From: an uncultured Butyrivibrio sp.
GTDB lineage: Bacteria; Bacillota; Clostridia; Lachnospirales; Lachnospiraceae
Length of the DNA stretch: 33,535 bases
NCBI GenBank assembly: GCA_946623755.1
Contig: CAMORK010000024.1
Span: 1-33,535, forward strand
Reading direction: 5' to 3'
Position numbers and translations under genes: made by a program. The notes beneath the pieces were generated by a model. The model had not been told where the DNA came from, ran no database searches, and saw only the letters and a list, made by a program, of their open reading frames with translations. How positions within the stretch are numbered: the stretch's first letter is position 1; the number at the start of each line of letters is the position of its first letter. Below are positions 22,467-31,819 of this stretch, piece after piece.

Positions 22467-25166
22467 TTATATGTTTTCAAGTTTTTCTCTGATGAGACTA
22501 TTGGTGCGTTCTATCTCCTCCAGAAGGTTTCTTGCAGACATTCTGATCGCGCCTGCGCTCATGACTATCACCTGTTCAATGGCATCGGAGGTTGCAACTG
22601 TAACCTTGTATTTTTTTCCGATTTCATGGGCAGCTTTCTCTATATATTGATCTGCGGTCTCTGCTTCTTTTGTATAAATAATCACAAGGCCGCCCCTGTC
22701 CTCCACGTGTTCCCTACCACCGGGAACCTTATACGCATCGAATACCAATAGCACCTTTTCCCTTCTAAAGCCCTGGAAGTTTACCAGTGTGTCGATGAGA
22801 GTATCCCTGGCTGCTTTCAGGTCATCTTTTGCCAGAGCCGCCATTTCAGGAGAGGCATAGATGATGTTGTAGCCATCCACCAAAAGATATTCCTTGTACT
22901 CATCCGGGTTCTGACCTTTTGTATTCTCGTACTTTTCGCGCTTTTTATTCTCGACCTCCAGGTCCCTTCTGGCTTCTTTTTCCTCGGGAGTCATGGCAGT
23001 GTAAGTGGTGGCCGTTTCAACGTATCTCGGCTTGACAGCCCCGTAGGTCCGCTCAAATATTGCCTTTAATTCCTTGTCCTCCATGCGAAGTCTTTCTTCT
23101 ATTTCGTCAAAAGACCTCTCGCCATCATCCTGTTTTCTGAGCCTTGCCTGAAGCTTCTCCAAAGCTTCCATATCAATGCTGTCAGAGAGATCAGTCTTTT
23201 TGCTGATCCCGTCAGGGTTCCATCCGGAATCCACATGCATATAGTTTCTTACTTCGCTCCAGGGTATAACAGTTCCTGCCCCGTGCATGCAAAAGACAGA
23301 GTCTGCTGAGTTGTCGATATCAAACTCCGGATCGTAGTTTTTCAATTCAAGTACCTCTTTAGTATTGTGACAGGGTGCATAGCCGCTGAGGGTTGTGAAT
23401 ATCTTTCCCTCTCCCCTTGTATAGGAAGAGAGGGTTGTGCTGTAATCTCCAAGACATGCTGCCGGAACTGTGCCGGTGATGATAGATTTTCCTCCCTCTA
23501 TATCAGGTGATGATACCGTTCCGTTCATACGCTGCATGTCACTTAAAGCTCTTCCCACAAATTCCTGCGGAAGCTCTATGCGATAATCAAACACAGGTTC
23601 AAGCAGAATACTGTTTGCCTGCATAAGTCCCTGTCTTATCGCACGATAAGTGGCCTGTCTGAAGTCTCCGCCCTCTGTGTGTTTCTCGTGGGCTCTTCCT
23701 GCAAGCAGAGTTATCTTTATATCCGTGATCTCGGATCCTGTCAGGACACCGAGATGTTTTTTCTCCATAATATGTGTCTGAATAAGCCTCTGCCAGTTAA
23801 GAGCAAGATCATCAGTGCTGCAGACGCTGTCTGCTACAATTCCGCTACCCGGCTCACCGGGCTCAAGCAGGAGATGTACCTCAGCGTAGTGCCTAAGAGG
23901 CTCATAGTGTCCGACGCCTTCCACGGGTGCCGCTATTGTCTCCTTATATACGATGTGTCCTGGGCCAAAGCCAACATCCAGATTAAAACGACTCTTTATA
24001 AGGTGCTTAAGGATCTCCTTCTGAACTTCGCCCATGGTCTGAACCACGATCGACTTTGTGGACTCTACGTAATTGAGAAGAAGCATCGGCTCCTCTTCCT
24101 CCAGAGCCTTAAGTTTGCCGTATACCTGTATTGCATCGACTTCCTCAGGAAGAATAAGAGTAGATGAAAGAATGGGCTGAAGAACCTCTGTCACAGTCTC
24201 GCCCTCCAAGATCCCGAGTCCCTCCCCTGCTCTTGTTCCCGATAGACCCGTCACGGCACAGATCATTCCTGCCTCTGCCTCTTTTACAGCAGTATACTTG
24301 TCTCCTGAATAAAGCCTTATCTGATCTATCTTGTCATCGCCTATCTGGTCTCTGACCTTAAGACTTCCGCTGATAATCTTCATATGAGTCAGCCTGTTGT
24401 TATTCTCATCACGGCTGATCTTAAATACACGGGCCCCGAAAGCATCCGACACGCGATTTTCAGAGGTCTCATCTGATGCAGGAATATACTCCGCCACCAG
24501 GTCCAAAAGCTCTTTTACCCCATCCATCTTAAGTGCCGATCCAAACCTGCAGGGAAAGCACTTACGCGCTCTGATCAGACGTACGATGTCATTCTTATTG
24601 ACGGCCCCGCCTTCCAAAAAGCTTTCCAGCAGCTCATCATCGCATACTGCAATCTCCTCCTGGGTCTCAGCATCTGAAACAGAACCGGAAAAATCCACAA
24701 CATGGCTGCTAAGATCGCTCTTAAGAGCAGCCATGATATCATCCTTGCTGATTCCCTGAGCATCAGTCTGGTCCATTTTATTAACAAAGATTATTGTGGG
24801 AACTTTGTAATGAGACAGAAGCTTGAAAAGAAGCTTGGCCTGACTGGTAACCCTGTCCGGGGCACTGATGACAAGAACTGCCACATCAAGGACCTGAAGA
24901 GTTCTCTCCATTTCCGGAGAAAAATCCGCGTGTCCCGGCGTATCAAGAAGGGTAAAATTTATTCCTTCATATTCAAACATAGCCTGCTTGGAAAATATAG
25001 TTATCCCGCGGCTTCTCTCAAGTTCATAGGTATCAAGGAAGGTGTCCCTGTGGTCTACTCTTCCCATATTTCTGATTGCTCCGGAGAGATACAAAAGTCC
25101 CTCTGAAAGCGTTGTTTTACCGGCATCAACATGAGCCAGAATACCGATTGTTAAATTATTTGACAT
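22467..25166 (-). CDS. Tet(M)/EF-G-like translational GTPase fused to a YacP/Rae1-like NYN nuclease
   Basis: An 899-residue two-part protein. Residues 1 to about 650 are a ribosomal-protection-type GTPase: G1 AHVDAGKT (11-18), RGITI (53-57), DTPGH with catalytic His79, NKMD (129-132), then EF-G-like domains II to V. The domain IV loop that in Tet(M) holds the tetracycline-displacing YSPV motif reads AGRAHEKHTEGGDFR here (489-503), so drug resistance is unlikely. A charged linker (about 650-760) leads to a PIN-like NYN domain (about 761-890) with conserved acids Asp764 (LLVDGYNII), Asp810 (LVFDAY), Asp839 (ETADQYIEK) and Asp861 (VATSDAIEQ), as in Bacillus Rae1, which cuts mRNA in the ribosomal A site. 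I infer a factor that delivers a nuclease to ribosomes. It lies 6 bases downstream of a small helical-protein gene. Confidence 0.88.
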   Translation of the reverse strand: MSNNLTIGILAHVDAGKTTLSEGLLYLSGAIRNMGRVDHRDTFLDTYELERSRGITIFSKQAMFEYEGINFTLLDTPGHADFSPEMERTLQVLDVAVLVISAPDRVTSQAKLLFKLLSHYKVPTIIFVNKMDQTDAQGISKDDIMAALKSDLSSHVVDFSGSVSDAETQEEIAVCDDELLESFLEGGAVNKNDIVRLIRARKCFPCRFGSALKMDGVKELLDLVAEYIPASDETSENRVSDAFGARVFKISRDENNNRLTHMKIISGSLKVRDQIGDDKIDQIRLYSGDKYTAVKEAEAGMICAVTGLSGTRAGEGLGILEGETVTEVLQPILSSTLILPEEVDAIQVYGKLKALEEEEPMLLLNYVESTKSIVVQTMGEVQKEILKHLIKSRFNLDVGFGPGHIVYKETIAAPVEGVGHYEPLRHYAEVHLLLEPGEPGSGIVADSVCSTDDLALNWQRLIQTHIMEKKHLGVLTGSEITDIKITLLAGRAHEKHTEGGDFRQATYRAIRQGLMQANSILLEPVFDYRIELPQEFVGRALSDMQRMNGTVSSPDIEGGKSIITGTVPAACLGDYSTTLSSYTRGEGKIFTTLSGYAPCHNTKEVLELKNYDPEFDIDNSADSVFCMHGAGTVIPWSEVRNYMHVDSGWNPDGISKKTDLSDSIDMEALEKLQARLRKQDDGERSFDEIEERLRMEDKELKAIFERTYGAVKPRYVETATTYTAMTPEEKEARRDLEVENKKREKYENTKGQNPDEYKEYLLVDGYNIIYASPEMAALAKDDLKAARDTLIDTLVNFQGFRREKVLLVFDAYKVPGGREHVEDRGGLVIIYTKEAETADQYIEKAAHEIGKKYKVTVATSDAIEQVIVMSAGAIRMSARNLLEEIERTNSLIREKLENI

Positions 25167-25172
25167 ACTCTT

Positions 25173-25622
25173 TTACTCTCTTACAGGTTCTGCTCCAAGC
25201 TCTGCAAGTATCTTGCTTGCGCCCTTAATCTTCTCCTTATACTTTGTCAGAAACGCTCTGTGGAGCACCGTACTCTCTTTTTCAAGCCCAAATCGCTTTG
25301 GGATTTCATAGGTCACTTCCATTATATCCTGTGCAAGTCTGGTGGCTGCCCCAGCTTCACTCATCGACATTATTCCGAACACAGCCGTTGAATAAGCTTT
25401 TGATGACAGACATGAGTCAATAAAGTGATCTGCAAACCCAAGAAGTTTTTCTTCCATATCACCGCTGTTTCCCGGTGACATGAGAACAGAAATGTGCTCT
25501 TGCATTTCTCTTTTAAGCTTCCTTGCATTAAGGAAATTAATGCTGGTTCTTCCGATGACCTGGATCATGAGCCAGGCCTTCATCTCTTCTGCATATTTAT
25601 TTTCAATTTCGTTATTACCCAT
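25173..25622 (-). CDS. Small helical protein of unknown function, operon partner of the GTPase-NYN fusion
   Basis: A 149-residue protein I do not recognise. It is predicted almost all helical, with no signal peptide or clear membrane segment, and no Cys/His metal cluster. Visible stretches include MKAWLMIQVIGRTSINFLNARKLK, a Met/Ser-rich SVLMSPGN turn, FIDSCLSSKAYSTAVFGIMSMSE, and a Lys-rich C-terminal end. The ATG follows AGAGGT. It is the first gene of a two-gene unit, only 6 bases ahead of the fusion gene, and has a good promoter at 25658-25686. Tight linkage suggests a partner or regulator of the fusion protein; nothing in its sequence proves this. Confidence 0.85.
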   Translation of the reverse strand: MGNNEIENKYAEEMKAWLMIQVIGRTSINFLNARKLKREMQEHISVLMSPGNSGDMEEKLLGFADHFIDSCLSSKAYSTAVFGIMSMSEAGAATRLAQDIMEVTYEIPKRFGLEKESTVLHRAFLTKYKEKIKGASKILAELGAEPVRE

Positions 25623-30755: not shown

Positions 30756-31819
30756 ATGAAAACAGGTTCAAAGACAAATCCCGTATCATTCTGGATTCTG
30801 GTATGGCTTCTGGGTCTTGCCGGACAGCTGTGCTGGAACATTGAAAATCAGTGGTTTAACACCTTCGTGTACGCCAAGATTGCCAAGGATCCCACCATAA
30901 TATCCTGGATGCTTGCAATATCCGCTCTTGCCACCACTGTCTCAACATTCCTCTTCGGTTGTATCTCTGACAGAAGGGGCAATCGTAAGACCCTTATTTC
31001 CCTGGGCTATATTCTCTGGGGCGTCTTCACTATTCTCTTCGGAACAACTGAGTTTTTGGGCAAAAGAAATAGCGACACAGCAGCTTTTGTCGGAATCGCT
31101 TTTGCTGTTATCGCTGCCGATGCCATAATGAGTTTCTTTGGTTCCATGGGCAATGATATCGGATTTAATGCCTGGATAAACGAAAAGAATATTTAAAGCA
31201 CCGCGAGCTTGTTTTCGTAAACCTTATGCTGGCTGTCTACTTTATTTCATTTAATGTATACTTCTCGCACCTTGGAAACTTCATGATCTACTATCTCGGT
31301 TTCACAGCAGATACCATGGGTCTTATTGAAGGCGTGGGACTTTTACTTGCCATGTTCACATCAATTCCTGCCATCAGATTCATACGTAATGACAAGTCCT
31401 CTTTGATCATTCTGTTTGCTGTTGTGATAAACGCTATAGGCCTTCTTGTTATAGGTCTTCTGGTTTCTCCTGAAAACGTAAATCCTTCTACCATCTGGAA
31501 TCCCATGCTCCTTATCGGAGTCCTCCTTGTGGGCATCGGCTACATTCTCTTTCTGCAGACAATTACTGTCTGGTCAAAGAGGCTTTATCCCGAGGACGCC
31601 AGAGGCCAGTTTGAGGGCATCCGCATCATCTTCTACGTGCTGATTCCCATGGTGGTTGCACCTCTTATCTCAAACCCGATCATCAAGAACAATGGTGAGA
31701 TCATCGATGAAAACGGCTTTACTGCTTATCTTCCCACGAATACGCTGTTCCTGGCAGGCGTTGTCATCGTGCTCCTCACCCTAATCCCTCTCTGGGCTGC
31801 AAATAAAGCACATAAGTAA
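30756..31819 (+). pseudogene. MFS transporter broken by internal deletion and frameshift
   Basis: Two consecutive pieces of one major facilitator transporter. Frame 1 (30756-31196, 146 residues) starts with a good ribosome binding site and gives about four helices with the MFS loop FGCISDRRGNRKTLIS, ending after GSMGNDIGFNAWINE. A second frame is open from 31169 to 31819. It reads KEYLKHRELVFVNLMLAVYF, a typical start of the second half, then about six helices, ending KAHK. The total is about 100 residues short of a usual 430-470 residue protein: the segment for helices 5-6 and the central loop is missing. The join lies within 31169-31196. Loss of function is likely; an assembly collapse cannot be excluded. 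Confidence 0.8.

Follow-up and report, generated by a model that had tools for sequence, protein, structure and literature searches.

What is the function of a protein that joins a translational GTPase resembling the tetracycline resistance protein Tet(M) to an mRNA endonuclease in a single chain? The question is raised by a fusion gene on a 33,535-nucleotide contig of an uncultured Butyrivibrio sp. (hereafter the window; GenBank assembly GCA_946623755.1, contig CAMORK010000024.1), whose 899-aa product carries five EF-G-type domains followed by a C-terminal extension, a linker and a nuclease domain of the NYN_YacP family, to which the ribosome-associated nuclease Rae1 belongs. An initial annotation, made from the sequence, proposed that such a protein might serve as a ribosome-targeted decay or rescue factor. 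Its observations are confirmed by the analysis described below, and its interpretation is partly supported. We favour, as the probable explanation, that the protein is a fused form of Rae1, which replaces the free protein in much of Clostridia and acts as a ribosome-targeted mRNA endonuclease, with the GTPase contributing to targeting or to clearance of the A site.

Profile searches recovered both halves of the protein (Table 1). The GTPase motifs AHVDAGKT (residues 11-18), RGITI (53-57), DTPGH (75-79) and NKMD (129-132) are all present, and Gly16-Lys17-Thr18 and Asp75-Thr-Pro-Gly-His79 are invariant across the 57 distinct rows of an alignment of fused proteins. Duplicate loci and one broken frame (L154) were left out of this alignment, and 32 of its rows, nearly all from Butyrivibrio, are the first fusion paralog and loci obtained by scanning named genomes. 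The nuclease domain has the Rae1 fold, with a score of 156 bits against the NYN_YacP profile (cut-off 24.6). Its four acidic residues, already noticed in the initial annotation, align with those of Bacillus subtilis Rae1 (5mq8/5mq9, E 9e-24), among which we take Asp7 to be catalytic, and all four are Asp in 57/57 fused relatives. The named-genome scan yielded 39 loci, mostly from Butyrivibrio and with 64-95% identity, and the most distant full-length fusion noted there is that of an Erysipelotrichaceae bacterium (39%). Relative to the nearest relative, dN/dS is 0.021 for the NYN domain and 0.021-0.075 for the GTPase domains. A chimera or a chance open reading frame (ORF) is ruled out by these full-length relatives (39-95% identity) and the low dN/dS values; the fusion gene is real and under purifying selection.

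In Lachnospiraceae, Rae1 usually occurs as the fusion. In a sample of 200 genomes of this family (199 genera), NYN_YacP was found in 179, and the corresponding open frames are of fusion length (at least 806 aa) in 162, intermediate (445-690 aa) in four and short (174-271 aa) in 13. Three of the short frames are not counted as true free NYNs, two lying at contig edges (G078 and G190) and one consisting of split, overlapping frames (G033). The GTPase part, for which the best six candidates were scored per genome, is present at E <=1e-100 in 172 of the 200 genomes, with one match each except in the window genome. These include 160 of the 162 genomes with fusion-length frames, the other two (G055 and G149) giving no match to the GTPase query at 1e-100. 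A class-wide sample of 147 genomes, assigned by frame, contains 53 with fusion-length frames (at least 734 aa), 46 with a free NYN, one intermediate and 47 with none. Across the phylum, NYN domains were found in 163 of 299 genomes and, among the matches listed, fusion-length frames also occur in families f61, f65, f105, f108 and f119, but the majority of these listed matches are free NYNs. No genome in the family or class samples combines the fusion with an intact free rae1 gene, with one ambiguous case (G030) in which a second, partial NYN match lies at a contig edge beside the fusion, where a free gene is possible. Another genome of the class sample (G317) has a second NYN match below the cut-off.

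Genomic context reveals where the free gene is missing. When their neighbours were read, free NYN genes were found directly after one gene family in seven of ten Lachnospiraceae and six of eight other genomes, and a seventh of these eight lies three genes further from it. Profiles identify this family as rlmB and its companions as cysS, sigH and an RNase III-domain gene, which we take to be mrnC, making the usual site of free rae1 the operon cysS-mrnC-rlmB-rae1-sigH. We sought rlmB in 52 genomes and inspected its flanks over about 1.5 kb either way. The gene directly after rlmB is rae1 in 13 of 16 free-NYN genomes, and in the remaining three rae1 lies ~1.9 kb further (G270), ~13 kb away (G246) or on another contig (G048). 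Within the same flanks, intact rae1 was found in none of 35 fusion carriers, its absence elsewhere in these genomes being based on the whole-genome NYN searches (for the phylum sample, on per-genome match counts that are complete for the genomes considered), and in 26 of the 35 the next identified gene after rlmB is sigH. No rlmB was found in the window genome, whose assembly is 60% complete.

Remnants of the lost gene persist in places. Carrier G221 retains a broken rae1 between rlmB and sigH, detected by tblastn as two fragments that differ in frame (4e-17 and 4.5e-14), and carrier G294 shows a weak 31-residue rae1 match at the same spot (1.4e-4). Within a single genus, G221 and G317 carry the fusion, whereas G249 has an intact rae1 and lacks the fusion, and similar contrasts between carriers and free-rae1 genomes exist within f20, f21 and f105. 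Fisher and hypergeometric values for such comparisons overstate independence, given that the genomes compared are related. Because rae1 is gone from rlmB in carriers, is kept there in genomes with a free NYN, lies in ruins in G221 and is intact in the fusion-free G249, the data support the conclusion that the fusion displaced Rae1. The supposition that stand-alone Rae1 would be missing where the fusion occurs is thereby borne out. On the simplest reading, arrival of the fusion would have made rae1 redundant, and would have done so more than once. The fusion itself has been in print since 2015, but we found neither its role as a displacing form of Rae1 nor any experiment on it in the literature searched. 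An account of Rae1 distribution (Condon 2018) may mention the fusion.

Phylogenetic trees are informative about how the fusion arose. In the NYN tree, which omits seven of 67 rows (two edge or split frames, two long branches and three duplicates), the 17 rows of classical free Rae1 stand apart from the fused and native Lachnospiraceae NYNs (bootstrap 99, SH-aLRT 94). Ten free Lachnospiraceae NYNs fall inside the fused clade. We considered these as products of gene fission, but seven of them directly follow rlmB, which points instead to native rae1. A single fusion event, with fused NYNs as one clade, is not rejected (p-AU 0.196); as the tree draws no clean line between native and fused NYNs, there may also have been more than one. 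In the GTPase tree, built by a quick method, the fused proteins group together in one clade (SH-aLRT 99). The unfused ~650-aa GTPases lie outside this clade, which takes in a split gene, three contig-edge rows and one GTPase that has no NYN. Fusions from f8, f20, f21, f25, f48 and f57 form a clade with that of the Lachnospiraceae genome G109. This pattern would fit a single event, within Lachnospiraceae or close to them, that attached a free GTPase to Rae1, followed by transfer.

The GTPase part has features that set it apart from resistance proteins. In alignments, GRAHEKHTEGGDFR occupies the position of the YYSPVSTPADFR loop of Tet(M) and Tet(O), and on this basis a conserved tip of another kind (KHTEGGDFR) takes the place of the drug-expelling Tet(M) loop, a replacement that the initial annotation had recognized. 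Residues K495, H496, T497, D501 and F502 are invariant in 57/57 fused and 14/14 unfused proteins, which argues that the tip has a conserved use. In addition, His493, whose position presumably corresponds to that of the EF-G tip histidine, is present in 55 of the 57 fused rows.

Between the GTPase and the nuclease, the initial annotation described a charged linker. A variable charged stretch is indeed present, but the first part of this region is a 44-residue C-terminal extension, following domain V, that is common to fused and unfused GTPases, and the stretch itself contains a conserved motif. Neither linker nor extension gave a Pfam match over the cut-off. In fused and unfused GTPases alike, C599 (just before the extension), C626, W636 and H644 are conserved, and Cys599, Cys626 and His644 (window 23229-23372) could bind a metal. 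The C-terminal extension of TetM is said, in work by Arenz from 2015, to contact the decoding centre. The linker is predicted with low confidence to be partly helical, and its ELKxIFERTYG motif (DKELKAIFERTYGAVKPR in the window protein) is confined to fused proteins, the unfused ones stopping before it. Within this motif E699 and T707 are invariant in 57/57 fusions, and it is possible that the motif serves as a docking peptide.

The nuclease domain, in turn, often lacks the tail of Rae1 (about B. subtilis residues 145-170): the alignment has a gap there for 17 of 34 fused proteins, and the window copy stops before it. A tail Arg, which aligns with B. subtilis Arg165, is kept in six of 34 fused rows versus 27 of 28 free rows, in a comparison that leaves out L003, L137 and L138 and counts G325 twice among the free rows. 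The substitution R166P, adjoining Arg165, was recovered in a set of efp suppressors, which were interpreted in that study as having lost the function of Rae1 (PMC6613710). We infer from the loss of the tail that the GTPase has taken over docking.

How the two activities might be coordinated can be outlined from better known factors. Tet and EF-G proteins bind the A site (PMC8161019 and PMC7456112), and Rae1 is described as an A-site mRNA endonuclease (PMC6613710 and PMC12320835). By the geometry of EF-G and Tet(M), domain IV would fill the A site, and therefore the two domains could not be there together and a relay would be needed. In such a relay, the GTPase part would bind ribosomes that have an empty A site and on which translation is stalled or paused, and domain IV, with its EF-G-like histidine tip, might probe or clear the decoding centre. 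GTP hydrolysis would then cause domain IV to leave, allowing the NYN domain, tethered by the C-terminal extension and the ~110-residue linker, to enter and cut the mRNA in the A site. The cut message would decay, and the ribosome could be rescued. That the nuclease acts on the ribosome, that events follow this order and what the GTPase contributes are all inferences.

Several observations weigh against an essential partnership of this kind. Unfused ~650-aa GTPases, found in Lachnospiraceae with a free NYN and in f36, have the tip loop and C-terminal extension of the fusion (14/14 aligned rows), stop right after the extension with neither linker motif nor NYN, and fall outside the fused clade. 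One is carried by plasmids of Ligilactobacillus salivarius. In the class sample, 42 of the 46 free-NYN genomes have no such GTPase (E 1e-100), and one occurs in three of 20 NYN-less genomes tested (G223, G252 and G226), and thus the partnership is not obligatory. An association of unfused partners is seen in Lachnospiraceae (8/10 versus 0/20), but it rests on one clade of NYNs, and its p-values are overstated by kinship. Since the partners are often apart and their association lies in one clade, the fusion may be a convenience. Moreover, domain IV and the NYN domain would be expected to compete for one A site, and displacement of rae1 demonstrates that the fusion is able to substitute for Rae1 but does not establish any benefit of the GTPase to the nuclease.

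These points give some weight to an explanation that we nonetheless hold to be unlikely, namely that the GTPase works as a general factor in translation stress or as an aid to translocation, that the nuclease does the work of Rae1, and that one chain does no more than fix their ratio. The occurrence of free Rae1 without the GTPase suits it, as does the fact that unfused GTPases sharing the tip loop and extension occur in genomes with and without an NYN. However, separate jobs would not readily account for fusion-length frames in 162 of the 179 NYN-bearing Lachnospiraceae and in other families, for the invariance of E699 and T707 in the linker motif, or for the gap at the Rae1 tail in half of the fusions compared.

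Intrinsic antibiotic protection, whether by release of tetracycline or another A-site drug or by destruction of the message on drug-stalled ribosomes, appears more improbable still. A resistance role has been suggested in print: Atkinson 2015 (PMC4342817) describes, in two sentences, ten Clostridiales in which a Tet protein carries a YacP-like NYN domain. The nearest solved structures are indeed Tet(O) and Tet(M), which match in one continuous stretch as opposed to two for EF-G; the fusion has spread horizontally between families and is present on two large plasmids (Monoglobus and Agathobacter); and the Agathobacter rectalis copy is publicly annotated as a 'TetM/TetW/TetO/TetS family tetracycline resistance ribosomal protection protein', the very mislabelling that had been anticipated. 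However, Pro509 and Val510 of the TetM loop, which overlap or clash with tetracyclines (PMC7456112), have no counterpart in GRAHEKHTEGGDFR, and the protein scores 431.5 bits against the tetracycline ribosomal protection model NF012153, below its cut-off of 775. It also falls below the cut-off of the EF-G equivalog TIGR00484 (283 versus 659.4 bits). Presence in 172 of 200 Lachnospiraceae genomes, nearly always once, is likewise at odds with a resistance gene, and no neighbour recurs in more than seven of 31 fused loci, a count in which mobile elements were not searched for. A role in rRNA or tRNA maturation, first predicted for the YacP-like NYN family (as quoted in PMC4342817), has very little in its favour, as the closest solved relative, Rae1, is the A-site endonuclease cited above.

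Preferring the displaced-Rae1 explanation, we think that the joined form probably serves in mRNA quality control as a housekeeping enzyme. A more ambitious proposal, which we advance tentatively, is that a GTP-driven rescue machine is standard in a large part of Clostridia, having arisen probably once, when a free Tet-like GTPase became joined to Rae1, spread between families and ousted rae1 more than once. Eukaryotic no-go decay follows a GTPase-plus-endonuclease logic, of which a translational GTPase that recognizes a stalled ribosome's A site, or clears it, and delivers its own nuclease would be a one-chain bacterial counterpart. If correct, many gut and rumen bacteria would have an enzyme of ribosome quality control that differs from those of Bacillus and E. 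coli, a GTPase would be added to A-site mRNA cutting by Rae1, a reaction not known to need one, and a core housekeeping gene would leave the tetracycline-resistance counts of gut metagenomes. With rae1 displaced and decaying, the functional claim is directly testable by complementation.

Several individual loci depart from the common arrangement. Contig C95 of the window genome bears another fusion, with 61% identity to the first, which may be a genuine paralog or result from faulty binning. This copy (L003:1039-4011) has inserts in its GTPase part and is cut by the contig end; the gene directly before it, in the same orientation, encodes an ArsR-type HTH protein. At L138:5513-8198, GTPase and NYN are encoded as two same-strand frames with a 23-nt overlap, which could mean a naturally split gene, a frameshift signal or faulty assembly. 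Fournierella massiliensis (L036:5941-10354) encodes a fusion-type GTPase whose sequence stops shortly after domain V, with no NYN in the stretch examined, located 640 bp from a 639-aa Tet-type gene. The unfused GTPase on the L. salivarius megaplasmids (L198:3995-5914), which is not among the 14 aligned rows, is annotated as tetracycline resistance. Two 'phage' records with full-length fusions (L199 and L200) are unverified gut scaffolds; judged by eye, their remaining ORFs appear bacterial, and we do not regard the fusions as phage genes.

In the window, the fusion gene is flanked by chemotaxis-receptor genes. It is possibly co-transcribed with the DUF6553 gene listed in Table 1, a match to which lies directly upstream in eight of 40 loci (L003-L042). 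Elsewhere in the window, adjacent MFS-type ORFs at 30756-31196 and 31226-31819 may represent one broken transporter gene.

Table 1. Features of the fusion gene and its upstream neighbour, in window coordinates
Feature	Residues	Coordinates	Strand	Basis or remark
Whole fusion gene (GTPase, C-terminal extension, linker, NYN)	899 aa	22467..25166	-	ORF, ATG start
G domain (AHVDAGKT, RGITI, DTPGH, NKMD)	4-229	24480..25157	-	Pfam GTP_EFTU, 3.4e-49
Domain II	244-315	24222..24437	-	Pfam EF-G_D2
Domain III	341-401	23964..24146	-	Pfam EFG_III
Domain IV	404-518	23613..23957	-	Pfam EFG_IV
Domain IV tip loop GRAHEKHTEGGDFR	490-503	23658..23699	-	Tet(M)/Tet(O) alignment
Domain V	521-602	23361..23606	-	Pfam EFG_C
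C-terminal extension	603-646	23229..23360	-	Common to unfused GTPases
Variable charged linker	647-757	22896..23228	-	Alignment; low-confidence, partly helical model
Linker motif DKELKAIFERTYGAVKPR	697-714	23025..23078	-	E699 and T707 in 57/57 fused
NYN_YacP (Rae1) nuclease domain (Asp764, 810, 839, 861)	761-897	22476..22886	-	Pfam NYN_YacP, 9.6e-46
DUF6553 gene		25173..25622	-	6 bp upstream of fusion gene, same strand

Relative to known systems, the fusion has points in common as well as differences. B. subtilis Rae1/YacP (5mq8, 5mq9; PF05991) is a free protein of ~170 aa that has a conserved C-terminal tail and belongs to a family mostly encoded after rlmB, whereas the fusion adds a 600-aa GTPase and is often without the tail. 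Compared with Tet(M) and Tet(O) (3j9y, 4v6v), the five EF-G-type domains align end to end over residues 5-599, but with only ~31% identity, and the fusion-type protein has an added nuclease and a C-terminal extension peculiar to it. By description, the Tet-NYN proteins of Atkinson 2015 are the same fusion; in contrast to the resistance suggested there, its distribution, the displacement of rae1 and the conservation of its residues point to the role of Rae1.
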